This document shows, piece after piece, positions 5,795 through 57,352 of a stretch of 64,000 nucleotides of DNA. The translations under genes and the position numbers were made by a program. A model generated the notes under the pieces. The model was not told the origin of the DNA, ran no database searches, and saw only the letters and a list, made by a program, of their open reading frames with translations. Source of the stretch: Actinocatenispora comari (GTDB lineage: Bacteria; Actinomycetota; Actinomycetes; Mycobacteriales; Micromonosporaceae); NCBI RefSeq assembly GCF_017312725.1, contig NZ_BOPO01000125.1, positions 1-64,000 of the forward strand, written 5' to 3'. The number at the start of each line of letters is the position of its first letter. Position 1 is the first letter of the stretch.

Positions 5795-8700
5795 CGACGC
5801 AGCGGGACAGCGGCGTCGCGCCAGCCGGGGGGCGACAGTTCACCGAGGCAGGTCGGCAGCCTGACGAGCCAGGCGACAACCGCCCGACGGACACCACGGA
5901 ACCGAGCGGTTCCACGCATCGACCGTACCCACCCGAGCCGACGCGCGCCGAGCGCCGGGAGCCGACGGAGCACCATGCCCCGCCGGCCGCTCCGGACGAT
6001 CTCGGTAACCAGGTGCTCGGCGAGGCGCTGCAGCAACTGCGCACCGCCGTCGCCGGCGTCCGGTTCAGCCTGGCCACGGCCGGCGCTGCGGAAGCCCGGC
6101 AGCTCGCCCGGCGGCTCGCCGGCACCCTGGACGACTACCTGTCCCCGCGGCTCGCCGAGCTGGCCGGGCCGCTGCTCGTCGTGGTCTGCGGCCCCACCGG
6201 CGCCGGCAAGTCGACGCTGGTCAACAGCCTGGTCCGGGCGCCGGTCAGCCAGGCCGGCGTGCTCCGGCCCACCACCCGGGCCCCGGTCCTGGTCGCCAAC
6301 CCGGCGGACGCGTCCTGGTTCGGCCGGCCGCGGCTGCTCGCCACCTTCGCCCGCACCGGGGGTACCCCACCGCAGGGCCGGCACCTGCAGGTGGTGGCCG
6401 CCCCGGCGCTGCCGCCCGGGCTGGCGCTGCTGGACGCGCCGGACATCGACTCCGTCGCCGCGGACAACCGGGAGCTGGCCGACGAGCTGATGAGCGCCGC
6501 CGATGCCTGGCTGTTCGTCACCACCGCCAACCGCTACGCGGACGAGACGCCCTGGCAGCTGCTGCGCACCGCCCGGGACCGCGACGCCGGGCTCGCCGTC
6601 GTACTGGACCGGATGCCGGTCGGCGAGGCGCGCCGGATCCGCAGCCACCTGTCCCGGCTGCTGGCCGAGGACGGGCTGGCCGACGTCCCGGTGTTCGAGC
6701 TGGCCGAGTCCGCGATGGGCCACGAGCGGCTGCTGCCGGAGGAGCAGGTCGCCGCGCTGCGCGACTGGCTCGAACGGCTCGCCGCCGACGGCGCCGCCCG
6801 CGCCGCGGTGGCCCGGCAGACCCTGGACGGCGCGATCGGCACGCTGCCGGCCAAGCTCGCCGTGCTCACCACCGAACTCGCCGCGCAGCACCGCGAGTCC
6901 GACACGCTGCGCGCCGAGGTGCGTATCGCACACGCGCACGTCCTGTCCACAGTGGACGACGCGATCCGGGACGGCGGGCTGCTCGGCGGCGAGCTCGCCG
7001 CCCGCTGGCAGGAACTCGTCGTCGGCGGCGAGCTGGTCCGCGCCGTACAGTCCCGCTCCGGGCGGCTGCGCGACCAGCTGCTGGTCTCGCTGACCGGGCG
7101 CGCGCTGCCCGGACGGCAGTTCGTACCGGCGGCCAAGGCGGCCCTGCACAGCCTGGTCGACGAGACGCTGGCCGACGCGGCCCGCCGCATCGCCGACGGA
7201 TGGCGGCGCGGTCCGGCCGGCACCGCACTGCTGTCCGATGTGGACAGTTACACCCCGCCCGATCTGGTCGCGCGGTGGTTCGACGACCTGGACGAGTGGA
7301 TCCGGACCGACGACGGGCAGCGCTCGGTGGCCCGGCAGACCGAGTACACGATCGCGGCGGTGCGGCTGCTCGTGCTGGTCGCGGTGCTCATCGCGCCGGC
7401 GCGCACCGACGCCACCGGCTCCGAACGCGCGATGCTCGACACCGTCCTCGCCGACCCGGTGGTGCGGCGCATCTCCGGTACCGCCCGCGACGAGCTGATC
7501 GGCCGGCTCCGCGAGCTCGCCGACCAGCAGCGCCGCCGGTACGACGCGGCGCTCAACCGGGTCGCGGTGGACGACGCCGCGATGGTCGCACTGAGTACCG
7601 CGGCCGAGGCGCTGGTGCCGGCCCGTACCGCGGCGGCGCTGGTCACCGAGCGCCGCTCGCTGCCACCGGCGACGCCACCCGCACCGCCGGCGCCGGCTCC
7701 GACGACCGGCGCGCTGCCCGGCCCGGACAGCCCGCTCTTCCACCCGGCACCCGAACCCACCGGTACCGAGCCGACCCGTCCCGCCGGCATCGACGCGACC
7801 GCCCCCGCGACACCCGAACCCGGCGGTACCGAGGCGACCGGCGCCGACGTGGCCGCAGCGGTCGACGAGAGCGGCCCGGTGCATGCGACAGCTTCGGCCG
7901 ATGAAGTCGGCCCGGCGCATCCGGCAGCTTCGGCCGACGACGTCGGCCCGGCGCATCCGGCAGCTTCGGATGACGAGGGCGGGGCGGCGCATCCGGCAGC
8001 TTCGGCCGAGGAGGGCGGCCCGGCGCATCCGGCAGCTTCGGATGACGAGGGCGGGGCGGCGCATCCGGCAGCTTCGGCCGACGACGGCGGGGCGGCAGCA
8101 CCGACCGACGCCGACGAGGCCGGGCCCGCGTCGGATGCCACCGCCGACGTGCCCGGCGGCGCCGACCCGACAGCCGGCGCCGCGGACACCACCGGAACGG
8201 CGAGCCTCGACACCTCACCGGAGCAGCGGAGCAGCGGCACCGACGAGACGACCGCGAGCGACGACACCGACGAGACGCCCCAGAGCGACGAGAACCGCGG
8301 CACCGACGAGGCCTCGGACGCCGCGGACGGCGGCGCGGACACGATGGCGCCGAGCCACGAGGACGGCGCCGACGTGGCAGCGGCGGTCGACGAGGGCGCC
8401 CCGCTGCATGCGGCAACTTCGGTCGACGAGGGCCTCCCGGCAGCACCGGCCGACGAGCACGGCCCGGCAGCACCAGCCGACGAAGGCGGCCCGGCAGCAC
8501 CGGCCGACGCCGGCGATGCTCCGCGCGCGGCAGCACCGGCCGACGAGGGCGGCGCAGTCGACGTGGCGATGCCGGACGCCGGGGCGGGCGGGTCGAGTGC
8601 CGACACAGCGTCGACCGTCCGCATCGAACAGGTCGATGCTGCCGAGACAGCGGTGTCGGTGGCCCACTCCGAGCCGGGTGACGCGGCACCAACCCGCCCG

Positions 8701-10302
8701 ACCGAGCCGACCGACCCGCCCACCACTCCGACCGAGGCGAACGACGCGGGCGAGCCTGCGGTGGCGAGTACGAAGGTCAGGGGCACCGGAACGTCCGGAT
8801 CGGACGGTGGCGGGGCCACCACGGCCGAGGACGTGACGCCGGAACGTCCGTCGGGTGCCGCGGATGCCTTCGGCGAGCACGAGCCACCCGTGCCGTCCGG
8901 GTCGCCCACTCCGGAGGCGCCGGCGGCGAACGGACAGCCAGCGTCGAGCGGCCGGTCGAACCGGACGGCCAGCGCGGACACCTCGACTGTCTCCGAGGCT
9001 CGCGCGGCCGCGGAGACGGCAGTCGCCGGCAGCGGGGTGGCGGACGGCGCGGTCACCCGCCCCGAGGCAGTACCGGATGCGGGCGAGCCCGGACCGAGCC
9101 ACACCACGCCGGGCGACACCACCAGCGAACGGAACCCGTCCGAGGGCGTACGGCGGCGGGCGGTCCGCCAGGCCACCGACACCACGTCGAGCGAGGACGA
9201 CCGCGAGCAGGGTCGGGACGAGACCGAGCCGGCGGACGACGCGCCCGAGGCCGGCGGCGAGTCGGCCGACCCCCGTGCGCTCCGCGACAGCACCGAGCCC
9301 ACCCACGACACCCCGGCGCCCGACACCCGCGAACCAACCGACGACATGGCAACACCCGGCACCGCCGAACCGAGTGACGGCGCGACGAGTGATGGCGCGA
9401 CCGGCCCGGTTGGCGGCACCGCGCCACCCGACGGCACCGAACCCACCGACGACACGGCAACACCCGGCGCCACCGAGCCAACCGACGACACGGGCGCCAG
9501 CGACCAGACCACGGTCGACCACCAAGCCGAACGCGACACCGCCGAACCGACCGGCGACGCAACGGGCGATGGCCGTACCGAAGTCGACGGCACGGCGCCA
9601 CCCGACGCTCCCCAACCAACCGACGACACGGCGACCGACCGCCAGGCCACGGCCGACCACCAGGCCGAGCACGACACCGCCGAACCGACCGGCGACGGTA
9701 CGGGAGTCGACGGCATCGGGCCAGCCGAACCGACCGGCGGCGTGGCAGCCGGTGCCGCCGAACCGACCGGCGGCGTGGCAGCCGGTGCCGCCGAACCGAC
9801 CAGCGGCGCGGCAGCCGACGGCCGTACCGACGTCGACGACCGTGCGGACCGTGACGCCGCCGAGGCCGCGGACCCGGTCGACGGCATCGCGGTACCCGAC
9901 GCCTTCGGGCCGAGCGGCGACGCGACGAGCGACGACGGGCCGGGCGGCGATGGGATCGGGGCGGTCGACGGCGGGGTGCCACCGGGCGCTGCGGGGCCGG
10001 CCGACACGACGAGCGGCGGCACCGAGCGGACGGGCGCCGAGACGGCGCCCGACACCGGCGAGGCGACGGGCGGGGCCCCCGCCGCCGGGGGCGAGGCGGG
10101 AGACGACGCGGCCGGTACGGGCGGCACCGGTGCGGCGCACGGCGTGGCCGGGGCCAGCGACGGAGCGGCAGCCACCGCCGAGCGACCGGCCACCGATGAC
10201 GGGACCGCGACGGGCGGCGGGCGGACGGCCGAGGACGGCCGTACCGGTCGGGCGGGCGTCGCGAGCGAGACCACCGACGGCACCGGCCAGGAGGACACGT
10301 GA
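5791..10302 (+). CDS. Dynamin-like GTPase with an ~880-residue acidic disordered tail
   Basis: A 1503-residue protein. The GTPase core has the P-loop GPTGAGKST at residues 134-142, a switch threonine region (RPTTRAP) and LLDAPDID in place of DxPG. The usual N/TKxD is replaced by VLDRMP, so base recognition may be altered. Helical sequence continues to about residue 620. After that comes an Ala/Asp/Thr/Pro/Gly-rich, strongly acidic tail with several internal repeats. The stop overlaps the start of a second GTPase (GTGA). Paired actinomycete dynamin-like genes such as dynA/dynB of Streptomyces share this adjacency; membership of that family is an inference. It probably acts at membranes, with its partner supplying the transmembrane anchor. 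Confidence 0.85.
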   Translation: MTTQRDSGVAPAGGRQFTEAGRQPDEPGDNRPTDTTEPSGSTHRPYPPEPTRAERREPTEHHAPPAAPDDLGNQVLGEALQQLRTAVAGVRFSLATAGAAEARQLARRLAGTLDDYLSPRLAELAGPLLVVVCGPTGAGKSTLVNSLVRAPVSQAGVLRPTTRAPVLVANPADASWFGRPRLLATFARTGGTPPQGRHLQVVAAPALPPGLALLDAPDIDSVAADNRELADELMSAADAWLFVTTANRYADETPWQLLRTARDRDAGLAVVLDRMPVGEARRIRSHLSRLLAEDGLADVPVFELAESAMGHERLLPEEQVAALRDWLERLAADGAARAAVARQTLDGAIGTLPAKLAVLTTELAAQHRESDTLRAEVRIAHAHVLSTVDDAIRDGGLLGGELAARWQELVVGGELVRAVQSRSGRLRDQLLVSLTGRALPGRQFVPAAKAALHSLVDETLADAARRIADGWRRGPAGTALLSDVDSYTPPDLVARWFDDLDEWIRTDDGQRSVARQTEYTIAAVRLLVLVAVLIAPARTDATGSERAMLDTVLADPVVRRISGTARDELIGRLRELADQQRRRYDAALNRVAVDDAAMVALSTAAEALVPARTAAALVTERRSLPPATPPAPPAPAPTTGALPGPDSPLFHPAPEPTGTEPTRPAGIDATAPATPEPGGTEATGADVAAAVDESGPVHATASADEVGPAHPAASADDVGPAHPAASDDEGGAAHPAASAEEGGPAHPAASDDEGGAAHPAASADDGGAAAPTDADEAGPASDATADVPGGADPTAGAADTTGTASLDTSPEQRSSGTDETTASDDTDETPQSDENRGTDEASDAADGGADTMAPSHEDGADVAAAVDEGAPLHAATSVDEGLPAAPADEHGPAAPADEGGPAAPADAGDAPRAAAPADEGGAVDVAMPDAGAGGSSADTASTVRIEQVDAAETAVSVAHSEPGDAAPTRPTEPTDPPTTPTEANDAGEPAVASTKVRGTGTSGSDGGGATTAEDVTPERPSGAADAFGEHEPPVPSGSPTPEAPAANGQPASSGRSNRTASADTSTVSEARAAAETAVAGSGVADGAVTRPEAVPDAGEPGPSHTTPGDTTSERNPSEGVRRRAVRQATDTTSSEDDREQGRDETEPADDAPEAGGESADPRALRDSTEPTHDTPAPDTREPTDDMATPGTAEPSDGATSDGATGPVGGTAPPDGTEPTDDTATPGATEPTDDTGASDQTTVDHQAERDTAEPTGDATGDGRTEVDGTAPPDAPQPTDDTATDRQATADHQAEHDTAEPTGDGTGVDGIGPAEPTGGVAAGAAEPTGGVAAGAAEPTSGAAADGRTDVDDRADRDAAEAADPVDGIAVPDAFGPSGDATSDDGPGGDGIGAVDGGVPPGAAGPADTTSGGTERTGAETAPDTGEATGGAPAAGGEAGDDAAGTGGTGAAHGVAGASDGAAATAERPATDDGTATGGGRTAEDGRTGRAGVASETTDGTGQEDT
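7891..8106 (+). repeat. Six 36-bp tandem repeats inside the GTPase tail
   Basis: Units begin with GCTTCG at 7891, 7927, 7963, 7999, 8035 and 8071, exactly 36 bp apart. Each encodes a 12-residue unit of the form ASADEVGPAHPA. Differences are mostly Asp/Glu or Gly/Val swaps. Further Asp/Pro/Ala repeats follow at 8380-8560, and an 11-residue unit AEPTGGVAAGA occurs near 9725-9800. Confidence 0.9.
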
Positions 10303-43693: not shown

Positions 43694-44707
43694 TCAGCCG
43701 CCGATCGCGGACATCGGCCGGGACGGCTGCAGGAACGACGGGTCGTTGATCGCGTGCCCCGGCGCCTTGCCCCACATCGCCGTGCGCCACGCGGTTGCCA
43801 ACTCCTCGTCGGTGGCGCCGCCGCGCAGCCCGCCACGCAGATCCGCCTCGTCCCGGCTGAACAGGCACGACCGCACCTGCCCGTCGGCGGTCAACCGGGT
43901 CCGGTCGCAGTCGCCGCAGAACGGCCGGGTCACCGACGCCACGATGCCGACCCGGGCCGGCCCGCCGTCCACCAGCCAGGTCTGAGCCGGGGCGCTGCCG
44001 CGCTCCCGGTCGTCCGGTGCCAGCTCGTGCCGGGACGACAGCCAGGCCAGGATCTCGTCCGCGGTGACCATCCGGTCCCGACGCCAACCGTGCTGCGCGT
44101 CCAGCGGCATCTGCTCGATGAACCGCAGCTCCAGCCCGTGCTCCAGGGCGAAGTCGAGCAGCTCGGGCGCCTCGTCCTCGTTGAGGTCGCGCAGCAGCAC
44201 CGTGTTGATCTTCACCGGGGTCATCCCGGCCTCCGCCGCCGCGGTGATCCCGGCCAGCACGTCGGGCAGCCGGCGCCGGTGCGCCAACTGCTCGAACCGG
44301 TCCGGCCGCAGCGTGTCGAGCGAGACGTTCACCCGGTCGAGCCCGGCCGCGCGCAACGGCCCGGCCAGCCGGGCCAGCCCGATCCCGTTGGTGGTCAACG
44401 CCAGCTCCGGCCGCGGCGACAGCCGGGCCAGCTCGGTCACGATGTCGACCAGCCCCGGCCGCAGCAACGGCTCACCACCGGTCAGCCGGACCTGCCAGAC
44501 ACCCAGCCGCTCGACCGCGATCCGGCACAGCCGCACCACCTCGGCGTCGGTCAGCAGCTCCTGCCGCGGCAGCCACGGCAGACCCTCTGCCGGCATGCAG
44601 TAGCTGCACCGAAGATTGCACCGATCGGTCAGCGACACCCGCAGATCGGTCGCCACCCGACCAAACCGGTCGACCAGCGTCAGCGCCTTACGAGCCTCGA
44701 CGGTCAC
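43694..44707 (-). CDS. moaA: GTP 3',8-cyclase (radical SAM, molybdenum cofactor biosynthesis)
   Basis: A 337-residue radical SAM enzyme. The first 4Fe-4S cluster is bound by CNLRCSYC (DRCNLRCSYCMPAEGLPW). LTGGEPLLRPG is the SAM-binding GGE motif. The C-terminal cluster ligands are in CGDCDRTRLTADGQVRSCLF, and the chain ends in the essential Gly-Gly (SAIGG). It turns GTP into 3',8-cyclo-dihydro-GTP, the first step to the molybdopterin cofactor. GTG start at 44707. It lies 20 bp behind the alpha/beta-hydrolase gene and just ahead of moaD. Confidence 0.96.
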   Translation of the reverse strand: MTVEARKALTLVDRFGRVATDLRVSLTDRCNLRCSYCMPAEGLPWLPRQELLTDAEVVRLCRIAVERLGVWQVRLTGGEPLLRPGLVDIVTELARLSPRPELALTTNGIGLARLAGPLRAAGLDRVNVSLDTLRPDRFEQLAHRRRLPDVLAGITAAAEAGMTPVKINTVLLRDLNEDEAPELLDFALEHGLELRFIEQMPLDAQHGWRRDRMVTADEILAWLSSRHELAPDDRERGSAPAQTWLVDGGPARVGIVASVTRPFCGDCDRTRLTADGQVRSCLFSRDEADLRGGLRGGATDEELATAWRTAMWGKAPGHAINDPSFLQPSRPMSAIGG

Positions 44708-44727
44708 CCCACGACCGTATCGCGAAC

Positions 44728-45723
44728 CTACGACGGAAGGTACGCGTCGAGCCAGCGCGCGGTCTCCGCATAGACCCGTTCGCGCACCGGTTTGGCCGAG
44801 AGCACCAGATCGTGCATGCCGCCCTCGATCCGCAGCAGCGTGACGTGCCGGCCGAGCTTCGGCGACCAGCGCGCGATCTGGTCGGCGTCCAGCACCGTGT
44901 CGAACCGCTGCGCCTCCTCGCTCCAGCTGCGCGGGAACCGGCTGCCGGTCGAGCACATCACCAGCACCGGGCAGCGGATGTCGAGCCCGTAGTGCACCCA
45001 CCGGTGCGCCCGGCGCACCGCGCGAAACCAGCCGGCCCGCACCGGGAACCCGCCGAGCGGCTTCCAGACGGTGTCGAAGTCCCACTCGCCGTGCTGCTCG
45101 TGGTGCAGGCTGTACCCGTACACCCCGGCCTCGTTGGCCCGCACCACCGCGCTGGGCTTGAGCTTGCCGATCACGTCCAGCGCCTCGGTGCCGGGGGTGC
45201 GCACCAGCCAGGAACCCTGCATGTCCAGCCACGGGCTGTTCAGCACGACCGCGTCGACCAGGCCGCGCTCGCGCACCCAGTGCGCCCAGATCGCGGCGAT
45301 CAGGCCCCCGGTGGAGTGCGCGTTCAGCATCACCCGCCGGGCGCCGTACTCGGCCCGGATGATCCGCACCGCCTCGTCCAGCTCGGCGAAGTAGTCGCGC
45401 AGGTCGGTGATGTAGCCGGGGGTCTGGTGTTCGCGCAGCGAGCGACCGTACTTGCGGAGGTCAAGCGCGAAGAAGTCGCTGCCCCGGGCGGTGTGGAAGT
45501 CGGCCAGCTCGGTCTGGAAGAAGTAGTCGGAGAACCCGTGCAGGTAGAGCACCGCGTCACCGGACGGCGTGCCGGTGGGGCGGTGGTGCACCAGGGTGGC
45601 GACGACCTCGCCCTCGTCGTCGTCGGGCAGCGGGATGGTCCGTGCGGTGTAGCCGGTGCCGAGCACGTCGTCGGCCAGCTCGTCCGGGACCAGCTGGGCA
45701 CGCTCGGTCACCTCGTCGCTCAC
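44728..45723 (-). CDS. Alpha/beta-hydrolase (lysophospholipase-like)
   Basis: A 331-residue hydrolase. The fold is shown by AVLYLHGFSDYFFQTELADF, the Ser elbow VMLNAHSTGGLIAAIWAHW (nucleophile in HSTGG), PVLVMCSTGSRFPRSW near the acid residue, and LRIEGGMHDLVLSAKPVRE with the catalytic His. It resembles serine aminopeptidase S33/lysophospholipase proteins. GTG 45723 has AGGGGGAAG upstream and is preferred over the ATG at 45777. It is probably co-transcribed with moaA and moaD, although no cofactor role is evident. Confidence 0.87.
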   Translation of the reverse strand: MSDEVTERAQLVPDELADDVLGTGYTARTIPLPDDDEGEVVATLVHHRPTGTPSGDAVLYLHGFSDYFFQTELADFHTARGSDFFALDLRKYGRSLREHQTPGYITDLRDYFAELDEAVRIIRAEYGARRVMLNAHSTGGLIAAIWAHWVRERGLVDAVVLNSPWLDMQGSWLVRTPGTEALDVIGKLKPSAVVRANEAGVYGYSLHHEQHGEWDFDTVWKPLGGFPVRAGWFRAVRRAHRWVHYGLDIRCPVLVMCSTGSRFPRSWSEEAQRFDTVLDADQIARWSPKLGRHVTLLRIEGGMHDLVLSAKPVRERVYAETARWLDAYLPS

Positions 45724-47765: not shown

Positions 47766-47783
47766 CCGCTCGCCCCGCCCGTC

Positions 47784-47890
47784 ACGAGCCGGGCGGCGCA
47801 GTCGCGACCCGGCGGGTAGCGCCCGGTACGAGCCGGGCGGCGCGGCCGCGACCCGGCAGGTAGCGCCCGGTAGGAGCCGGGTGGCGCGGC
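47784..47890. repeat. 44-bp direct repeat, 2.4 copies
   Basis: Units beginning ACGAGCCGGGCGGCGC start at 47784, 47828 and (as AGGAGCC) 47872. Each contains CGACCCGGCGGGTAGCGCC and can form a short hairpin. It fills the gap between the DoxX and Nudix genes; its role is unknown. Confidence 0.75.
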
Positions 47891-49609: not shown

Positions 49610-51655
49610 TCATGGCCGTTCCCCGGCACTGAGCGGGAACGGCAGGAACTCGGCCGGCTCGCCGACCCGGCCGGTGGCGCCCGGCGGTACCAGTACGAAG
49701 CCGTCCGCCCAGGCGAGACCGCGCAGCATCGCCGATCCGTTGTGCGGCAACGGGTAGGCCAGGCCGTCCGGTTCCAGCCGGGCGAGCGCGAGGTGGGTGT
49801 CGTCGCCGCGACCGGCGATCTCGGCGCCGAGCCGGACCCGGCTCAACCGCGGCACCGACCGCCCGGTGAGCCCGGCGACCAGCGGCCACACCAGCGTCAG
49901 CAGGCCGATCACCGCGGACTGCGGGTTGCCCGGCAGGCCCGCCACGAACCGGCCGCCGGGCAGCTTGGCCAGCACCATCGGGAAGCCCGGCCGGACCGCG
50001 ACGGTGTCCACCACGTACTCGGCGCCGAGCTGCGCGAGCGCCGGATGCAGGTGGTCGACCGGGCCGTGCATGGTGCCGCCGGTGGTGCACACCAGGTCCG
50101 CCGCGCCGGCGGCGGTCGCGATCGCCTCGACGTGCGCGTCGAGGGTGTCGCCGACCGGCGCCACCGGGGCGGAAACCGTTGGCAGCGCGCCGATCCGGGC
50201 CAGCCAGCCGGGCAGTTGCGGGCCGAGCGAGTCGCGCACCAGGCCGCGGCCCGGCAGGCCCTCGGTGAGCAGCTCGTCACCGAACACCAGCACCGTGGCC
50301 CGGGGCGGGCGGCGCACCAGCAGCTCGTCGTACCCGCACTGGGCGGCGACGCCGACCGCACCGGGTGTCACCGGGGTACCGGCCGGGAGCAGTTCCTCGC
50401 CCTTGACCGCCTCCTCGCCCGGGACCCGCCACTCCGGCGTCGGCCGGCGGGGCTGCCCGGAGACCAGGCCCTCGGCGTCCCGGGTCGAGTCCTCGACCCG
50501 GATGATCTGGTCGGCGCCCGGCGGCACCATCGCGCCGGTCGCGATCTCGACCGCCGTACCGTCGGCCAGCGCGACCGCGACCTGGCCGGCGAGCACCCGG
50601 CCGGACACCCGCCACGGGCCGGCGCCGCGCACCGCGTAGCCGTCCACGCTGGCGGTGGTGAACGCGGGCAGCGGGGTACGGGCCCGGACCGGCTCGGCGA
50701 GCGTCGCGCCGGCGGCGTCGGGCAGCGCGAGCCGGACCGGCTCCGGCGGTGCGGCCGCCCCGGCGGCGTGCGCGGCGATTCGGGCCGCCGCCCAGCCGAT
50801 CGAGCCGCCACCCGCATCGTGCCCGCGGGCGCCCGCGGCTCCCGGCCCGGTCACCTGTCCGTGGGCACCGTCGGCTCCCGGCGCGGCTGCGCCGTGGCTG
50901 TGGCCACCTACGGCTCCCGGCCCGGCTCCGACGTGGCTGTGGGTACCCGCGGCTCCCGGCGCGGCTGCGCCGTGGCTGTGGGCGCCCGCGGGTCCTGGCC
51001 CGGCCACGGCGGGGCCGGCGGCGGCGCGCGGGCCGGCGCTGGAGCCGGTCGCGGGGAGCACGGTGGTCTGCTCGGCGCCCCCCGGCGGTGCGGCGACCGC
51101 GGACGGGCTGCCGGCGGGCGCGGACGAGTCGGCTGCGGCGACCGCGGGCGGGACGCCGGCGGTCGCGTCCACCGGGCGCGGATGGTCACCGCCGCGCAGC
51201 TGGTCGACCGCGTGGGCCAGGATCGGGCCGAGCACGGCGAGTCCGTCGGCGACGGCGCCCCGCGAGCCGGCCAGGTTGACCACCAGGGTGCGGCCGGCGA
51301 CACCGGCGATGCCACGGGACAGCGCCGCGGTCGGCACCGTGCCCACGCCGTACGCCCGGACCGCCTCGGCGATGCCGGGGATCTGGTAGTCGAGCACCCG
51401 GGCGGTCGCCTCCGGGGTGCGGTCGGTGGGCGAGACACCGGTACCGCCGGTGGTGACGACGACGTCGACCCGGGCCGCGACCGCCTCGCGCAACGCCCGC
51501 TCGACCGGGTCACCGTCCGGTACGACCACGGGCTCGGTCACCGTGGCGCCCAGCCGGCGCAGACCGTCGACGAGCACCGGCCCGGTGGTGTCGGCGTACC
51601 CGCCGGAGGAGGCACGGTTGGAGGCCACGATGACCCGGGCCTGGAAGTCGGTCAC
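49610..51655 (-). CDS. moeA: Mog(MoaB)-MoeA fusion with His/Gly-rich linker, gephyrin-like
   Basis: A 681-residue protein whose GTG start overlaps the moaC stop (GTGA). Residues 1 to about 150 are a MoaB/Mog domain (VIVASNRASSGGYADTTGPVL, DVVVTTGGTGVSPTDRTPEAT, VVNLAGSRGAV), which adenylylates molybdopterin. Residues about 283-681 are MoeA (LPAFTTASVDGYAVRG, TGAMVPPGADQIIRVED, VCTTGGTMHGPVDHL, LPGNPQSAVIGLL), which inserts molybdate. The linker of about 125 residues is Ala/Gly/Pro-rich and contains repeated HSH units (GAHSHGAAAPG, GTHSHVGAG, GGHSHGAAAPG). The domain order G-linker-E equals eukaryotic gephyrin and lets the adenylylated intermediate pass directly between sites. Confidence 0.95.
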   Translation of the reverse strand: MTDFQARVIVASNRASSGGYADTTGPVLVDGLRRLGATVTEPVVVPDGDPVERALREAVAARVDVVVTTGGTGVSPTDRTPEATARVLDYQIPGIAEAVRAYGVGTVPTAALSRGIAGVAGRTLVVNLAGSRGAVADGLAVLGPILAHAVDQLRGGDHPRPVDATAGVPPAVAAADSSAPAGSPSAVAAPPGGAEQTTVLPATGSSAGPRAAAGPAVAGPGPAGAHSHGAAAPGAAGTHSHVGAGPGAVGGHSHGAAAPGADGAHGQVTGPGAAGARGHDAGGGSIGWAAARIAAHAAGAAAPPEPVRLALPDAAGATLAEPVRARTPLPAFTTASVDGYAVRGAGPWRVSGRVLAGQVAVALADGTAVEIATGAMVPPGADQIIRVEDSTRDAEGLVSGQPRRPTPEWRVPGEEAVKGEELLPAGTPVTPGAVGVAAQCGYDELLVRRPPRATVLVFGDELLTEGLPGRGLVRDSLGPQLPGWLARIGALPTVSAPVAPVGDTLDAHVEAIATAAGAADLVCTTGGTMHGPVDHLHPALAQLGAEYVVDTVAVRPGFPMVLAKLPGGRFVAGLPGNPQSAVIGLLTLVWPLVAGLTGRSVPRLSRVRLGAEIAGRGDDTHLALARLEPDGLAYPLPHNGSAMLRGLAWADGFVLVPPGATGRVGEPAEFLPFPLSAGERP

Positions 51656-52152
51656 GGTTGCCTCCCGTCGTCGGCCGGACGGATCCAGGTACCGGTCTTG
51701 CCGCCGTCCTTGCGCAGCACCCGGACCGCGTCGATGCCGGCCGCCGGGTCGACCGCCTTGATCATGTCGATCAGCGCGAGGCCGGCGGCGAGCACCGAGG
51801 TCAGCGCCTCCATCTCGACCCCGGTGCGGTCGGCGGTGCGCACCGTGGCTCGTATGTCCACTGTGGACTCGTGCGGTTCGAGGTCGACGACCACGCCGTG
51901 GATGGCGATCGGATGGCACAGCGGAACGAGGTCGGGGGTGCGCTTCGCGGCCATGATGCCGGCGATCCGCGCCACCCCCAGCGCGTCGCCCTTGGCCAGT
52001 CCGTTGGTTCGGATCAGGTCGAGCACCTCGGTGGTGGTACGCACCACGCCGGCGGCGACGGCACTGCGGACGGTGACGTCCTTGCCGGAGACGTCCACCA
52101 TCCGGGCCGCGCCCGTCTCGTCCACATGGGTCAGGCCGCTGGACTCGGTCAC
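51652..52152 (-). CDS. moaC: Cyclic pyranopterin monophosphate synthase
   Basis: A 166-residue enzyme that forms cPMP from the MoaA product. Conserved segments are LTHVDETGAARMVDVSGKDVTVRSA, AKGDALGVARIAGIMAAKRTPDLVPLCHPIAI (with LCHPI), TGVEMEALTSVLAAGLALIDMIKAVD and VRVLRKDGGKTGTW. It is first in the moaC-(mog-moeA)-moaE operon. MoaA and MoaD are encoded 7 kb away in the same orientation. Confidence 0.96.
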   Translation of the reverse strand: MTESSGLTHVDETGAARMVDVSGKDVTVRSAVAAGVVRTTTEVLDLIRTNGLAKGDALGVARIAGIMAAKRTPDLVPLCHPIAIHGVVVDLEPHESTVDIRATVRTADRTGVEMEALTSVLAAGLALIDMIKAVDPAAGIDAVRVLRKDGGKTGTWIRPADDGRQP

Positions 52153-52547
52153 ACGACGAGCCTACGCAGCCCGGCCGGCCCGGACCGACACGGCGGGCGA
52201 ATCGGTACGGCCGTCCGCACCGCCGGCGGGCCCACCCGCACGGCAATGATCCGTTTCGTACCGCCGAGTGATCACCTGTCATCCTTTTCGCACATGGCCC
52301 TGTCATAGACGGCTATCTATGCTGACGGTGTTCCTCCTGCCGGAGATGGCGGTGCCCCGGCCCGCCCCGCGACGCAACGGGCCGCACGCACCGGCCACGA
52401 CGCGCGCGACGTTGGGGGGCGGTCGTGACGACGCCGCGAAACGGGCATGCACCGCGCGCTCCTCGTACCGCGCCGCCCTCCTGCCGCCGAACCGCGGCCG
52501 CCGACCCACCGGCACCCACTCCCGAGACGTACCGAAGGGGGTCCGCC
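52153..52547. promoter_or_regulatory. Divergent region between moaC and the mini-gene array
   Basis: About 395 bp. An AT-richer pocket at 52274-52325 (with TATGCT at 52318-52323) may hold the promoter of the array, but no good -35 matches it. The 200 bp before the first mini-gene are GC-rich, with an open frame that looks non-coding (Arg/Pro-rich). No other signal is seen. Confidence 0.4.
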
Positions 52548-52571
52548 GTGCGCGAACACAACTGGTCCTGA
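52548..52571 (+). CDS. Mini-gene 1, MREHNWS
   Basis: GTG start, Glu as GAA, Ser as TCC. AAGGGGG at 52535-52541 is 6 nt upstream. This copy and copy 6 share the same codon choices, unlike their neighbours. Confidence 0.7.
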   Translation: MREHNWS

Positions 52572-52613
52572 CGACTTGTCGCAGCCGACACCACACGGAG
52601 AGGGGATGCCGCC

Positions 52614-52637
52614 ATGCGCGAGCACAACTGGAGCTGA
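52614..52637 (+). CDS. Mini-gene 2, MREHNWS
   Basis: ATG start, Glu GAG, Ser AGC. GAGGGG lies 8 nt upstream. Its spacer is the first of the GACACCAC family, slightly diverged (GACACCACACGG). Confidence 0.7.
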   Translation: MREHNWS

Positions 52638-52678
52638 CCGCCGCCGACACCTTCCTGACCAGCGGAAAGGAGACCGCG

Positions 52679-52702
52679 ATGCGCGAGCACAACTGGAGCT
52701 GA
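52679..52702 (+). CDS. Mini-gene 3, MREHNWS
   Basis: ATG start, Ser AGC. AAAGGAG is 6 nt upstream in a spacer of the GACCAGCGG family, nearly identical to that before copy 12. Confidence 0.7.
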   Translation: MREHNWS

Positions 52703-52747
52703 GCGAACCCCGTCGCGACCGACACCACGAAGAGAGGAGGCGCCGCC

Positions 52748-52771
52748 ATGCGCGAGCACAACTGGTCCTGA
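52748..52771 (+). CDS. Mini-gene 4, MREHNWS
   Basis: ATG start with Glu GAG but Ser TCC, combining the two codon types. GAGGAGG is 7 nt upstream. The preceding spacer is the longest, 45 nt. Confidence 0.7.
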   Translation: MREHNWS

Positions 52772-52812
52772 GAGCTGTCGCAGCCGACACCACGAAGAAA
52801 GGAGGCAGCGCG

Positions 52813-52836
52813 ATGCGCGAGCACAACTGGAGCTGA
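52813..52836 (+). CDS. Mini-gene 5, MREHNWS
   Basis: ATG start, Ser AGC. AAAGGAGG is 7 nt upstream. Confidence 0.7.
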   Translation: MREHNWS

Positions 52837-52877
52837 ACGACCGGACGCCGCCCCGACAAGCGGGAAGGACACACGCC

Positions 52878-52901
52878 GTGCGCGAACACAACTGGTCCTG
52901 A
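52878..52901 (+). CDS. Mini-gene 6, MREHNWS
   Basis: GTG start, Glu GAA, Ser TCC, the same codon set as copy 1. GGAAGGA lies 8 nt upstream. Confidence 0.7.
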   Translation: MREHNWS

Positions 52902-52943
52902 GGAGCGGTCGCAGCCGACACCACGAAGAAAGGAGGCGCCGCC

Positions 52944-52967
52944 ATGCGCGAGCACAACTGGAGCTGA
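52944..52967 (+). CDS. Mini-gene 7, MREHNWS
   Basis: ATG start, Ser AGC. AAAGGAGG is 7 nt upstream; the spacer repeats that of copy 5 almost exactly. Confidence 0.7.
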   Translation: MREHNWS

Positions 52968-53008
52968 ACACCGCCGACAACGTCCCGACCAGCCGGAAGG
53001 AGACCGCG

Positions 53009-53032
53009 ATGCGCGAGCACAACTGGAGCTGA
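53009..53032 (+). CDS. Mini-gene 8, MREHNWS
   Basis: ATG start, Ser AGC. GGAAGGAG is 6 nt upstream; the spacer belongs to the same family as copies 3 and 12. Confidence 0.7.
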   Translation: MREHNWS

Positions 53033-53074
53033 GCCCCCGTCGCGACCGACACCACGAAGAGAGGGGACGCCGAC

Positions 53075-53098
53075 ATGCGCGAGCACAACTGGAGCTGA
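53075..53098 (+). CDS. Mini-gene 9, MREHNWS
   Basis: ATG start, Ser AGC. AGAGGGGA is 7 nt upstream; GACACCACGAAGA-type spacer. Confidence 0.7.
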   Translation: MREHNWS

Positions 53099-53135
53099 AC
53101 GAGCCGACACGATCCGACAACAGGAAGGACACGCC

Positions 53136-53159
53136 ATGCGCGAGCACAACTGGAGTTGA
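53136..53159 (+). CDS. Mini-gene 10, MREHNWS
   Basis: ATG start and the only Ser AGT codon. AGGAAGGA is 6 nt upstream. The preceding spacer is the shortest, 37 nt. Confidence 0.7.
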   Translation: MREHNWS

Positions 53160-53201
53160 TCGGACGACGCCGTCACATCGAGCCGAGGAGGGAGGCGCGC
53201 C

Positions 53202-53225
53202 GTGCGCGAGCACAACTGGAGCTGA
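53202..53225 (+). CDS. Mini-gene 11, MREHNWS
   Basis: GTG start but Glu GAG and Ser AGC. The AGGAGGGAGG ribosome site is the strongest of the array; this spacer matches no other. Confidence 0.7.
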   Translation: MREHNWS

Positions 53226-53266
53226 ACCCCGCCGACAACGTCCTGACCAGCGGAAAGGAGACCGCG

Positions 53267-53290
53267 ATGCGCGAGCACAACTGGAGCTGA
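53267..53290 (+). CDS. Mini-gene 12, MREHNWS
   Basis: ATG start, Ser AGC. AAAGGAG is 6 nt upstream; the spacer resembles those of copies 3 and 8. Confidence 0.7.
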   Translation: MREHNWS

Positions 53291-53328
53291 ACGGCACCCG
53301 TCGGCCATGTCGTACGAAAGGAGACGCC

Positions 53329-53352
53329 GTGCGTGAACGCCACTGGACCTGA
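53329..53352 (+). CDS. Mini-gene 13, variant MRERHWT
   Basis: GTG start; codons CGT GAA CGC CAC TGG ACC. His-Asn becomes Arg-His and Ser becomes Thr, while Met-Arg-Glu, Trp and the stop are kept. GAAAGGAG lies 5 nt upstream. It is the last copy, 100 bp before the GGDEF-EAL gene. Confidence 0.6.
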   Translation: MRERHWT

Positions 53353-53381: not shown

Positions 53382-53411
53382 CTTACGTCGATCCGCGCAT
53401 CCGCGTAGGAT
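53382..53411 (+). promoter_or_regulatory. Candidate promoter of the GGDEF-EAL gene
   Basis: CTTACG (53382-53387) and TAGGAT (53406-53411) are spaced 18 bp apart. TAGGAT fits the actinomycete TAGRRT -10. It lies between the last mini-gene and the GTG start, so the diguanylate cyclase gene may not depend on transcription through the array. Confidence 0.45.
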
Positions 53412-53452: not shown

Positions 53453-55936
53453 GTGAGTACTGCCGACGCTTCCACGGCCCGCAACGCCACCCTGCGCCGC
53501 TACATCTTCGGACACGCCGCGCTGGCGCTGGGCGTGCTCCTTGTCGCCACCGCCAAGCTGCCCGGGCCGACCGGCGCGCTGTGGCTCGCGGTGGGCATGC
53601 TCGCGCTGTACACGGTGGCCGGGTTGGCCCCGGTGCAGCTGCGGTTGCGCAGCCAGGGCGTGCAGTTCGCCTGGGGCGAGGCAGCCGTCATCATCGGGCT
53701 GGTCGTGCTGCCACCGAGCACGATGATCTGGGCGGCGGCGTTGGGGCGCCTCGCCGCCGAGCTGATCGGTCGCCGCCCCGCGGACAAGCTCACCCTCAAC
53801 GTCGCGAAACAGGTCGTCGCAGTCACCGGGGCCGCCACCCTCAGCTACCTGGTGGCCGGCGCCCGGGTGGATCCGTTCACCGTCCGGGGCGCGGTCGCAC
53901 TGATCGCCGCGACGGGGGTGTACGCGCTGTTCGCCGCGCTGTCGGTGAGCATCGCGATCAGCCTCGCGAACGGCACCCGGCTGCGGCTGATGCCGCTGCA
54001 CCGGGTCGAGCTGATCGCGATCAGCGGCAACATCGCCATCGCGTTCCTGATCCTCGGCGTGCTGCGGTTCGATCCGCGGCTGCTGTTCGCGATCCCACCG
54101 ATGATCGTCTTCCTGCGGCTCGCCTACGCCTACCGGCTGCGCACGCACACCGAGCGCGAGGCGTGGCAGCGGCTGGCCGCGGCGACCGACCGGTTCAGCG
54201 AGGTCGACCTGGCGCAGGTGCTGGGTACCGCGGTGACCGGCGCCGCCGAGCTGTTCGGCGCCGACGAGGTCGAGGTGCTGGTCCGGCTGGGCACCGAACC
54301 GGACGGCCTGGTCCGCGGCGACGCGCAGGGCGTGTCCTGGGCCGGCGCCGCCGCCGACGCACCGGTCGCGGGCGAGGCCGAGACGATCGAGACGCCGCTC
54401 GGCAGCACCGACACCGACGCCGGCCCGGGGGAGCTGCGGCTGCGGTTCGCGGGCACCGTGCGGCTGAGCGACAGCGAGCGGTACGCGCTGCGTACCTTCG
54501 CCGCCGCACTGGGCACCGCGCTGCGCAACGCGTACGCGTACGCCGAGGCGCAGCGGCGGGCGGCCCGGCACGCCTACGACGCGGCGCACGATCCGCTCAC
54601 CGGCCTGGCCAACCGCCGGTACCTGCTGGACGTGGGCGAGCAGGTGCTGTCCGAGCGGCCGGCGCGCGGCACCCAGGCGATGGTGCTGATCGACCTGGAC
54701 CACTTCAAGGAGGTCAACGACACCCTCGGGCACTCCGCCGGTGACGAGGTGTTGACCGCGATCGGCCGGCGGCTGGCCACCGCGGCCGGCGACGACGACA
54801 TCGTGGTACGGCTGGGGGGCGACGAGTTCGCGGTGCTGTTCGTGGCGCTGCCGGCGCCGGCGCTCGCGGTGCACCGGGCCCGGCAGATGCTCGCCACCCT
54901 GGACCCGCCGATCGAGGTCGACGGCATCCGGATCACCGTCGGCGGCAGCGCCGGCGTCGCGCTCGCCCCGGTCCAGGGCGGGGTCGGCGAGCTGCTGCGC
55001 CGCACCGATGTGGCGATGTACCAGGCGAAACGGGAGGGCAGCCGGCTCGCCGAGTACCAGCGGCAGCGGGACACCGCCGACGTCGGCCGGCTCGCCCTCG
55101 GCGGCGAGCTGCGCGCCGCGCTGCACGGCAACCAGTTCGCCCTGCGGTACCTGCCGATCGTCGAGCTGAACTCGGGCCGGATCAGCGCGGCGGAGGCGCT
55201 CGCCCGGTGGGAACACCCGTACCGGGGGGAGATGGCGCCGCGGCAGTTCCTCACCGCGATCGAGCGGTCCGACCTGCTGCCGGAGTTCACCGAGCTGGTG
55301 CTGGACACCGCGCTGGCGGCGGCGTACCGGTGGGCCGACGCCGGGCACCCGATCGGCGTCGCGGTGAACCTCTCCCCGCGCAGCCTGCTCGACCCGGACT
55401 TCCTGCGCGTGGTGCAGCGGCGCGTCACGTCCAGCGGGGTACCGCCCGAGCAGCTCACCCTGGAGCTGACCGAGACCCGCAACCTGAGCCGGCTGGACGT
55501 CGTCGACGAGACCCTGCGCGGGCTGCGCGAGCTGGGGGTGCGCATCGCCCTGGACGACTTCGGTACCGGCAGCTCCTCGCTCGGCATGCTGGCCCGGGTG
55601 CCGGTGGACGAGCTGAAGATCGACCGCAGCTTCGTCGCCGGCCTGGTCACCTCGCCGGAGCCGGCGGCGGTGGTCCGCGCCGCGATCGACCTGGGCCGCA
55701 GCCTCGACCTGTCGGTGGTGGCGGAGGGGGTGGAGAGCCAGCGGCAGCGGGCGATGCTGTTCGAGCTGGGCTGCCCGTGCGGTTCCGGCTACCTGTTCTC
55801 CCGGCCGGTGACCGACACCAAGATCGCCGACCTGCTCGCGGCGGAGACCCCGCTGGCGCCGCCGATGTCGGCGGACGCGCAGGTCATCCGCATCCCACCG
55901 GGCCGGCTGACCCGCAGCACCCGGCACCGCCTGTAA
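53453..55936 (+). CDS. Membrane GGDEF-EAL protein (c-di-GMP synthesis and/or breakdown)
   Basis: An 827-residue protein. Several membrane helices fill residues about 15-220 (ALALGVLLVATAKL, LWLAVGMLALYTVAGL, AAVIIGLVVLPPS, AIAFLILGVLRF). A GAF-like segment follows, then a GGDEF domain with intact RLGGDEFAVL (about 452-461) and DPLTGLANRRYL. The EAL domain has AAEALARWEHP (about 580), NLSPRSLLD, ELTETR and DDFGTGSSSL with VDELKIDRSFV, so both activities look intact. GTG 53453 with GGGGA upstream is chosen. It adjusts cyclic di-GMP, which controls development in actinomycetes. Confidence 0.92.
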   Translation: MSTADASTARNATLRRYIFGHAALALGVLLVATAKLPGPTGALWLAVGMLALYTVAGLAPVQLRLRSQGVQFAWGEAAVIIGLVVLPPSTMIWAAALGRLAAELIGRRPADKLTLNVAKQVVAVTGAATLSYLVAGARVDPFTVRGAVALIAATGVYALFAALSVSIAISLANGTRLRLMPLHRVELIAISGNIAIAFLILGVLRFDPRLLFAIPPMIVFLRLAYAYRLRTHTEREAWQRLAAATDRFSEVDLAQVLGTAVTGAAELFGADEVEVLVRLGTEPDGLVRGDAQGVSWAGAAADAPVAGEAETIETPLGSTDTDAGPGELRLRFAGTVRLSDSERYALRTFAAALGTALRNAYAYAEAQRRAARHAYDAAHDPLTGLANRRYLLDVGEQVLSERPARGTQAMVLIDLDHFKEVNDTLGHSAGDEVLTAIGRRLATAAGDDDIVVRLGGDEFAVLFVALPAPALAVHRARQMLATLDPPIEVDGIRITVGGSAGVALAPVQGGVGELLRRTDVAMYQAKREGSRLAEYQRQRDTADVGRLALGGELRAALHGNQFALRYLPIVELNSGRISAAEALARWEHPYRGEMAPRQFLTAIERSDLLPEFTELVLDTALAAAYRWADAGHPIGVAVNLSPRSLLDPDFLRVVQRRVTSSGVPPEQLTLELTETRNLSRLDVVDETLRGLRELGVRIALDDFGTGSSSLGMLARVPVDELKIDRSFVAGLVTSPEPAAVVRAAIDLGRSLDLSVVAEGVESQRQRAMLFELGCPCGSGYLFSRPVTDTKIADLLAAETPLAPPMSADAQVIRIPPGRLTRSTRHRL

Positions 55937-56035: not shown

Positions 56036-57352
56036 GTGACGCTGACCGGAATCGCCCGCGCGACGCACCGGGCCGGCCGAGGCACCGTGGTCGACATCGT
56101 GCTGTACGCGGCATCCGCCGTCTATGCCGGAATCATCGCGTTCAACACCGGGATGCCGGCGCACGCGCAGTGGGGCCGGATCGCGGTGTTCGGCTACCTG
56201 GCGCTGACCGTGCTCGCCGTCGTCCAGCGGTTCGTCGGGCGCGGGCTGGCCCGGCCGGCCACCCGGATGGTGCTGGTGTTCGCCGGCTGGGCGGCCACCA
56301 CGCTGCTGCCGCTGCTGATCGAGGCCGCCCAGCGGGCCACCGGCGCCAGCGGCCGAGCCCAGGACGAGGTGACCGTCGTCGAGATGGCCGGCGCGCGGCT
56401 CGTCGACACCGGCAGCCCGTACCTGTCGCACGACGGCATCGTCGGCGCGCTGCCCTCGCTCGGCTACCTCGCCTACGTGCCGTACAACCCGGGCATCGCG
56501 GTGTTCGGCCTGCCCCGGCGGTACGCGGGGGACCAGTGGTGGACCGACGCCCGGGTCGGCTTCGCCGTCGTGACCGCCGCCGCGATCGTCGCCGCCCTGG
56601 TACTGCTGCGCCGGCTCGCCCCCGCCGCGGTGCTGGTCCGGGCGGCGCAGGTGGCGACCGTGTTCCCGGTCTGCGCGCTGACCCTGGCCACCGGCGGCGA
56701 CGACCTGCCGGTCCTCGCGCTGTGCCTGCTCGGGCTCGCCTTCGCGGTACGGGCACGGGTGGACGAGGGCGGCGGCGCTCTCTGGTGGCTACTGTCCGGC
56801 CTGGTCATCGGCGACGCCGCCGCGATGAAGCTGTTCGCCCTGCCGGTGCTGGTGGTGTTGGCGGTGTTCGTCGGGTTCCGGGCCGGCGGCCGGTCGCTCG
56901 GCTGGTACCTGACACCGGCGCTGGCCCTGCCGGTCGTCACGCTCGGCCCGATCGCGCTGCGCGACCCGGACGGCGTGCTGGAGAACCTGGTCCGCTACCC
57001 GCTCGGGCGCGGGCTGGCCGAGAGCCCCGCCGCGAGCAACCTGCCCGGGCACCTGATCGCGGTGCTGCTGCCAGGTGGGAAGGTCGTCGCGGCGAGCCTG
57101 CTGGTGGCGGCCGGCCTGGCGTTCGTGCTCCACCTGCTGGTCCGGCCGCCGGCCGACGTCGCCGCGGTGACCTGGCGGGTCACCGCGGCGATGCTGCTCG
57201 CGATCTGCCTGGCGCCGGCGACCCGGTTCGGCTACCTGCTCTACCCCGCCGCGTACGCGGTCTGGGCGGTGGCGCTGCGCATACCGCGCGAACCGGCCGA
57301 GCCGGCACGACATCCCGGCGTTCGAGTCGCGACCGCCGGGGATCGGGCGTAG
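56036..57352 (+). CDS. Polytopic membrane protein, possible GT87-like mannosyltransferase
   Basis: A 438-residue protein with about 10-11 hydrophobic helices. An outer loop after the second or third helix contains ARLVDTGSPYLSHDGI and LAYVPYNPGIAVFGLPRRYAGDQWW, reminiscent of GT-C-fold polyprenol-phosphate-mannose-dependent transferases (GT87/DUF2029), including an Asp near the start of the loop. The family assignment is tentative. The GTG start lies 7 bp after CAGACT, so it is likely leaderless. It precedes a phosphoribosyltransferase gene by 9 bp. Confidence 0.72.
   Translation: MTLTGIARATHRAGRGTVVDIVLYAASAVYAGIIAFNTGMPAHAQWGRIAVFGYLALTVLAVVQRFVGRGLARPATRMVLVFAGWAATTLLPLLIEAAQRATGASGRAQDEVTVVEMAGARLVDTGSPYLSHDGIVGALPSLGYLAYVPYNPGIAVFGLPRRYAGDQWWTDARVGFAVVTAAAIVAALVLLRRLAPAAVLVRAAQVATVFPVCALTLATGGDDLPVLALCLLGLAFAVRARVDEGGGALWWLLSGLVIGDAAAMKLFALPVLVVLAVFVGFRAGGRSLGWYLTPALALPVVTLGPIALRDPDGVLENLVRYPLGRGLAESPAASNLPGHLIAVLLPGGKVVAASLLVAAGLAFVLHLLVRPPADVAAVTWRVTAAMLLAICLAPATRFGYLLYPAAYAVWAVALRIPREPAEPARHPGVRVATAGDRA

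Follow-up and report, generated by a model that had tools for sequence, protein, structure and literature searches.

The mini-ORF array of Actinocatenispora

The window analysed here is the 64,000-nucleotide stretch, shown above, of the genome of the soil bacterium Actinocatenispora comari (contig NZ_BOPO01000125.1, positions 1 to 64,000), and it contains, at 52548-53352 on the forward strand, a tandem array of 13 mini open reading frames (mini-ORFs), each of seven codons and a TGA stop, upstream of a gene for a membrane GAF-GGDEF-EAL protein. Comparison of genomes shows that such ORFs, preceded by a Shine-Dalgarno (SD) sequence and ending in Trp-x-stop, precede genes for membrane GGDEF-EAL proteins in several families of actinobacteria and an MFS exporter gene in others, and that the unit was tandemly multiplied to 6-13 copies in some lineages, with selection on the peptide as judged from codon substitutions. 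We tentatively favour the view, to which we give slightly under an even chance, that the array is a multiplied, conserved leader mini-ORF whose translation would set the expression of the downstream gene. More broadly, these comparisons point to an undescribed switch based on a peptide or on translation.

The mini-ORFs were read directly and by script, which bore out the tandem, SD-preceded MREHNWS mini-genes described in an earlier note on this DNA, except that the note began the span at 52534, 14 nt before its actual start at 52548. The copies are spaced 61-69 bp from start to start and begin with ATG (nine) or GTG (four); twelve encode (f)MREHNWS and the last (53329-53352) encodes MRERHWT. 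The best match to AAGGAG has 4-6 of its six bases and ends 5-8 nt upstream of the start codon in 12 of the 13 copies, the exception being the copy at 52614, where this distance is 13 nt. Tandem Repeats Finder reported periods of 65, 131 and 258 bp over the array, and the two longer periods suggest that copies were partly duplicated in pairs. A search of the whole genome with the MREHNWS pattern gave 12 matches, all within the array, and none with the reversed pattern as control. The features are as follows.

52548..52571, + strand: mini-ORF 1, GTG start, MREHNWS, Ser codon TCC
52614..52637, + strand: mini-ORF 2, MREHNWS
52679..52702, + strand: mini-ORF 3, MREHNWS
52748..52771, + strand: mini-ORF 4, MREHNWS, Ser codon TCC
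52813..52836, + strand: mini-ORF 5, MREHNWS
52878..52901, + strand: mini-ORF 6, GTG start, MREHNWS, Ser codon TCC
52944..52967, + strand: mini-ORF 7, MREHNWS
53009..53032, + strand: mini-ORF 8, MREHNWS
53075..53098, + strand: mini-ORF 9, MREHNWS
53136..53159, + strand: mini-ORF 10, MREHNWS, Ser codon AGT
53202..53225, + strand: mini-ORF 11, GTG start, MREHNWS
53267..53290, + strand: mini-ORF 12, MREHNWS
53329..53352, + strand: mini-ORF 13, GTG start, MRERHWT; divergent, closest to the gene, Trp retained
52318..52323, + strand: putative -10 box of the array promoter P1, TATGCT (TATTCT in A. rupis), about 225 nt before mini-ORF 1; a consensus match only, conserved in 4/4 genus members aligned
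53406..53411, + strand: putative second promoter P2, -10 box TAGGAT, between array and gene, 53 nt past the last stop; conserved in 4/4 genus members
53453..55936, + strand: membrane GAF-GGDEF-EAL protein of 827 amino acids (domains from Pfam), GTG start
51652..52152, - strand: moaC, divergent upstream neighbour, outside the element (context)
56036..57352, + strand: GT87-like membrane protein, downstream (context)

The array was present in all four Actinocatenispora genomes compared, in 13, 13, 10 and 7 copies, always upstream of the same membrane GGDEF-EAL gene, whose product in the other three members is 97, 94 and 74% identical to that of the window; the alignment of the four also showed the TAT[GT]CT box of P1 and the TAGGAT box to be conserved. 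Within each genome the mini-ORFs are more alike (identity 0.90-0.97) than the spacers between them (0.62-0.69), and the codons vary in the arrays at position 7 (AGC, AGT, TCC or TCG, with ACC in two last copies), position 3 (GAG or GAA) and position 2 (CGC or CGT). Each of the four genomes also has a paralogous GGDEF-EAL gene with a single mini-ORF of its own (MREVSWG, MREVSWG, MREWCWG and MREGVWG); the paralogue starts about 40 nt past this mini-ORF with no TANNNT between them (three loci), and here mini-ORF and gene are likely, from this layout, to share one mRNA. No Rfam family matched anywhere in the window at gathering thresholds. Other tandem repeats in the window lie at 7859-9950, 47776-47890 and 50827-51004.

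Mini-ORFs in other lineages

A search of 33 other Micromonosporaceae genomes returned 30 loci, and among the best matches of 24 genera a single mini-ORF with Trp as its penultimate residue was found in 22 of the 23 that have upstream DNA (L034 has none, and the 24th, L047, is cut off and lacks upstream DNA). A set of named loci comprised the best 80 of 143, with 67-35% identity in the sensor region, mostly from Micromonospora and also from Phytohabitans, Plantactinospora, Planosporangium, Pilimelia, Dactylosporangium, Virgisporangium and a few metagenome-assembled genomes. All 80 have such a mini-ORF within 700 nt before the matched sensor region, exactly seven codons long at 79 of them, compared to 1/80 on the reverse strand, 0/80 inside the gene and, in dinucleotide shuffles, 2.6% for ORFs of 4-10 codons and 0.3% for seven. 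The detector requires Trp as the last or penultimate residue (penultimate for the 80-locus scan), so the Trp figure partly reflects this filter, the unselected fact being that 80/80 loci passed. There are usually one or two copies, with an array in A. rupis. A short SD-preceded ORF, codirectional with and conserved across species upstream of one gene, is one mark of a leader peptide, and this is the arrangement found.

The consensus in these other Micromonosporaceae is M-R/K-G/S-x-E/D-W-x-stop. Across the 79 seven-codon mini-ORFs, position 2 is R in 59, K in 10 and N in 7, position 3 is G in 40 and S in 26, position 4 is N, H, S or T in 72, position 5 is E in 42 and D in 31, and position 6 is W in all 79, with sixteen different residues at position 7. 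When the pattern was searched across the family without anchoring it to a gene, it matched in 154 of 354 genomes, mostly once in each (the reversed pattern matched in 3 genomes), and 26 of the 30 matches fetched lie directly before a GGDEF-EAL gene, the other four (L277, L291, L297 and L300) having no such gene.

At 78 loci of other genera, TANNNT boxes occur on both sides of the mini-ORF, which probably places it between two promoters: 70/78 have a box about 100-55 nt before it (shuffles 36%) and 70/78 have one 18-40 nt past its stop (shuffles 11%), with 4/78 and 0/78 in two control bins farther on. Upstream of the putative first promoter, some 90-150 nt before the mini-ORF, an AT-rich, partly palindromic motif (TGCGCATA..GACATTTAT, GCGACATTTATTGTCGC) was seen by eye at L177, L180, L186, L194, L241 and L250 and is possibly an operator. 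A large BTAD/NB-ARC/TPR regulator of the SARP (Streptomyces antibiotic regulatory protein) type is divergent to the mini-ORF and GGDEF-EAL gene at L177, L184 and L198, a place taken by moaC at others.

Further mini-ORF arrays occur in at least two other families. MRGATWG arrays were found in 4/4 genomes, among the matches listed, of g46, a genus from another family of the order: G048 and G765 have seven copies each, G772 seven including the variants MQGATWG and MSGATWG, and G779 six plus VSRGAIWG. G786, of the same family, has MRGTHWG and MERGTHWG. The genus g42 has ten members in G044, eight of them MQLDGTHWG, and six in G057, four of them MSNGWG between MRFDSNGWG and MRDSNGWG. The copies of g46 differ almost only synonymously, by 30 synonymous to 2 non-synonymous codon steps in total (27-28% synonymous expected; 9:0 in G048, P = 1e-5; 7:0 in G779, P = 1.4e-4; 7:2 in G772, P = 2e-3; 7:0 in G765, P = 1.3e-4), indicating that it is the peptide that is under selection, and as these genomes share history their P values are not independent. 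The corresponding steps are 5:5 in the G044 array (P = 0.06) and 3:4, 2:1, 2:0 and 2:0 in the four Actinocatenispora arrays (P = 0.11 to 0.03), where several of the non-synonymous changes fall in the last copy. The case for selection on the peptide therefore leans on the g46 arrays and on conservation across species, those of Actinocatenispora (9:5) and G044 (5:5) being insufficient alone. The peptide-level constraint proposed in the earlier note thus holds, weakly within Actinocatenispora, and the decay that it asked to be looked for in relatives was not seen, since 4/4 genomes of the genus keep the array and synonymous changes in g46 are far above the neutral expectation.

Outside the order, a W-x-stop mini-ORF was found at 7 of 18 loci, encoding MSKMWA, MSKDWK, MRSTSWN, MRDTYWG, VNAGVSWG, VNTGVSWG plus VNAGVSWG, or VSLTEKWG; the other 11 have none, nor does L054 within the order. 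The distance from start to Trp thus varies from 5 to 8 codons while the Trp is constantly one codon before the stop, and it is the sole residue common to all mini-ORFs found, both being features that the detector requires. Not every membrane GGDEF-EAL gene is accompanied: 26 of 40 more distant matches lack a mini-ORF (the 14 that have one include L088, L089 and L091, added by eye after the SD filter missed them), as do 14 of 20 genes in a second set, namely eight loci of family f10 (one of only 327 nt), G055 and 5/5 other-class paralogues, of which four belong to genus g4 (Micromonospora) and one to g9, two MSWS matches about 1.58 kb away being dismissed. The other-class membrane GGDEF-EAL paralogues at L416-L420, L354 and L355 (7/7 with no mini-ORF near the gene) form a natural negative control.

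A class-wide pattern for arrays ending in W-G-stop matched in 19 of 394 genomes, with no mini-ORF array among the matches listed; this pattern is blind to arrays of the MREHNWS type and, within the order, it sampled mainly one family (f8). In eight genomes the matches are probably CRISPR-like rather than mini-ORFs (a 61-bp unit with the repeat end GTGGGG[GA]TGA; such mimics are at L145-L147, L155 and L160-L163), and the remaining matches listed are low-complexity or single places.

The second context is an MFS exporter gene. Seven of 67 genomes of the genus g29 have one to three mini-ORFs, MRGR[ST]W[SGAN] or MRSRSWV, before a gene whose product (one was scanned) has Pfam MFS_1/MFS_3 domains and which is a remnant in G122; 13 genomes matched, and the six that were not counted either lack a clear SD or have the look of chance matches. 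One sequence, that of G093, contains N. A GGDEF gene is divergent at 5 of the 7 loci. G048 has the non-identical MRGTDWE, MRITEWD and MHGTDWD before another MFS gene, and in G044, G057 and G049 an MFS gene related to that of g29 (43-45% identity) lies upstream of the mini-ORFs and GGDEF-EAL gene. Six g29 MFS leaders, and the seventh with its MFS remnant, have a GC stem of about 17 bp in the interval from the last mini-ORF to the gene, with folding z-scores of -2.4 to -5.7 for the seven and -2.0 for the G048 leader; no U-run follows the stem in g29. The statement of the earlier note that no exporter lies nearby is accordingly true beside the window array and does not extend to other lineages, where an MFS exporter adjoins the mini-ORFs.

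Leader or peptide product

If the array is a leader acting in cis, transcription from P1 would give an mRNA whose mini-ORFs are translated, and a ribosome would pause near or at the stop codon with Trp as the last or next-to-last residue of the nascent chain; the trigger could be the supply of charged tRNA-Trp, the capacity for termination or a ligand that acts on the ribosome. This pause would alter the transcription or translation level of the downstream gene, in the MFS leaders with the GC hairpin behind the mini-ORFs as attenuator, and at the GGDEF-EAL genes either because transcripts begun at P1 read on across P2 into the gene or through the action of Rho, and the copies would be additive in that many paused ribosomes could occupy one mRNA. 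We favour a translated cis leader because the mini-ORFs are strictly tied to one gene position, are placed like leaders at the paralogues, keep Trp at a set distance from the stop and, in the MFS leaders, are followed by a hairpin that resembles an attenuator.

Several observations weigh against it. At 70 of the 78 GGDEF-EAL loci with one or two copies, the putative P2 sits behind the mini-ORF, so the gene may also have an mRNA that lacks the mini-ORF, and no conserved hairpin follows the mini-ORF at these 78 loci (mean z -0.75; 13% below -2), the z-score of the window interval being -2.18. Covariation in the MFS hairpin is thin, with 3 of 21 pairs compensated and an unfavourable net covariation term (+1.57), and two of the three compensated pairs come from one poorly aligned sequence, leaving one that is convincing. 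The substitution test is weak in Actinocatenispora, where changes are few (9:5 in total, P 0.03-0.11 per array). If control in cis were the whole story, constraint should be strongest in the copy next to the gene, and the window shows the opposite, MRERHWT being its least constrained copy. Identical peptides across copies would fit a product needed in dosage at least as well.

Such a product, a free (formyl-)heptapeptide produced in large amounts, with as many as 13 cistrons to one mRNA, and serving as an intracellular or exported signal, is possible, and we consider it clearly less probable than the cis leader. It would explain why the copies mostly encode the same peptide while the spacers diverge, copy number could set its dosage, and the sequences are lineage-specific, as with signals; related MFS genes also adjoin mini-ORFs in g29, g42, G048 and G049. 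Its simplest target would be the sensor of the adjacent GGDEF-EAL protein, of which residues ~37-210 are predicted to have the fold of solved energy-coupling factor (ECF) S components (models with mean pLDDT, predicted local distance difference test, of 92.2 and 91.0, and fold comparison). Known S components bind vitamins or metals, not peptides, which counts against that target, and the models suggest a cyclic di-GMP (c-di-GMP) enzyme with an S-component-like sensor fused to GAF-GGDEF-EAL that may sense a vitamin-like ligand.

Over 67 loci (12 of 79 having been dropped for lack of a seven-codon match or WQ motif or for a protein of <700 residues), variation in peptide residues 2-5 tracks that of the sensor domain (r 0.48) more closely than that of the GGDEF-EAL part (r 0.20); the partial r is 0.50, with a permutation p <0.001. 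Where the membrane domain ends, r drops from 0.47 to 0.27. However, this is confounded by linkage and rate: the non-coding DNA flanking the mini-ORF co-varies too (r 0.36 and 0.32), as does the apparently free residue 7 (partial r 0.27, p <0.001). Much of the relation may therefore come from linkage, and we regard it as suggestive only. Residue 7 also differs between species that share residues 1-6, some arrays are non-identical (such as the three peptides before the MFS gene of G048), seven residues leave no room for an export signal, and no exporter lies beside the window array. The more specific idea of a signalling cassette, in which tandem mini-genes mass-produce a peptide of 6-9 residues ending in Trp-x without a larger precursor, to be read by the adjacent S-component-like c-di-GMP enzyme and in some lineages exported by the MFS protein, with copy number as dose and the peptide diversifying with its sensor, is rather doubtful.

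The earlier note had offered peptide dosage and a serial sensor of translation for His, Asn and Trp supply, and both ideas survive in altered form, the His/Asn part having fallen: His and Asn are not conserved in relatives outside the genus, where only Trp is, which makes a sensor of their supply unlikely. In amino-acid leader peptides the remainder of the peptide is little constrained. A sensor of Trp supply, in which uncharged tRNA-Trp (from starvation or a tryptophanyl-tRNA synthetase inhibitor) would stall ribosomes along a leader with one Trp codon per mini-ORF and 13 per mRNA, would accord with the Trp present in every mini-ORF found (which the detector requires, 80/80 loci passing) and kept even in the diverged last copy, and in the published trp leaders of Corynebacterium and Streptomyces the UGG codon is doubled or tripled (PMC1262725). 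Yet the mini-ORFs have one UGG each where known trp leaders have runs of them, codon sensing should not require R/K at position 2, G/S at 3, E/D at 5 and a stop right after the next codon, and the downstream genes found (GGDEF-EAL, MFS) are not of Trp metabolism, so that we think this sensor improbable. A classical trp-type attenuator was rejected, there being one TGG per mini-ORF, no codon run and a downstream gene from outside amino-acid pathways. A tRNA-sequestering minigene was also discarded, the last Ser codon switching between the TCN and AGY boxes and residue 7 being variable in relatives.

Neutral drift of the repeat, with the copies as by-products of unequal crossing-over around one useful leader, would account for the block duplication seen in the 131- and 258-bp periods and for a copy number of 7-13 within the genus. 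It is nevertheless very improbable, given that inner copies retain peptide, SD and start while spacers fall to 0.56-0.69 identity, that g46 copies differ almost only synonymously and that arrays recur in several lineages. Hardly any weight is given to a long antisense or through-reading protein gene in which the mini-ORFs arise by chance. Long open minus-strand frames do cross the window array and the arrays of the genus, but in the arrays of G048 and G044 every minus frame is broken by stops (G765 leaves two open), the substitution pattern fits a plus-strand heptapeptide, and since the copies recur at 61-69 bp, an interval in most cases not divisible by three, no long frame can stay in phase with them.

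Significance and known systems

Seven-codon genes escape ordinary annotation, and here they are linked to a single gene class across several families of actinobacteria, with tandem multiplication in at least three lineages. If the cis leader is correct, a class with up to 13 serial upstream ORFs (uORFs) and a rule of Trp before the last residue would represent a new ribosome-based control of c-di-GMP, the second messenger that governs actinomycete development, and tandem multiplication with constraint on the peptide would be a new variant of leader; if a free peptide is made, it would be a new kind of system and one of the smallest signals encoded directly by a gene, for which a candidate receptor is already at hand. 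The earlier note knew of no comparable many-copy array. Searches of the open-access PMC literature showed none either, and nothing found there describes a tandemly multiplied leader with peptide-level constraint; arrays do exist, as described above, in at least two further families.

A ribosomally synthesised and post-translationally modified peptide, also raised in the earlier note, is not supported by the sequence or by the ORFs scanned. Biarylitide precursors resemble the mini-ORFs in being tiny genes (18 bp) with a Met start and aromatic residues, and differ in encoding five residues that a dedicated P450 cross-links (PMC13417212), whereas the mini-ORFs encode seven with Trp as the sole aromatic besides His. 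No P450 was found among the 13 window ORFs scanned (43.7-59.9 kb) or 20 ORFs of related loci, these scans covering part of the ORFs in each, and the sole radical SAM protein among the window ORFs scanned (43694-45232) looks like MoaA.

The Streptomyces phosphodiesterase RmdB (6TM-GGDEF-EAL, six transmembrane helices) is, like the product of the window gene, an actinomycete membrane GGDEF-EAL c-di-GMP enzyme, a likeness of enzyme class, and the word "leader" does not appear in the main text of its paper (PMC6205966). The actinobacterial trp, ilvB, cys and leuS leaders resemble the array in being short ORFs, some with Trp codons and some with no obvious terminator, but they carry runs of regulatory codons before matching amino-acid genes, and "tandem" occurs 0 times in the text (PMC1262725).

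The mechanism proposed for the cis leader resembles that of uORFs in which a stalled ribosome switches a downstream gene. One such uORF is toiL of E. coli topAI, which senses multiple antibiotics, although it is single and is proposed to act by occlusion of the ribosome-binding site and Rho (PMC12121999). MsrDL and MefAL of the mefA-msrD operon differ from the array in having one ORF per gene (MTASMRLR and MYLIFM), in depending on macrolides, and in belonging to streptococci and to a resistance gene rather than a c-di-GMP enzyme, and "tandem" occurs 0 times in the main text. Like the array, they are very short ORFs upstream of a gene. Behind theirs stands a transcription attenuator, and the arrest of MsrDL at its stop codon, which opens the attenuator, is a precedent for what we propose for the mini-ORFs (PMC10314930).

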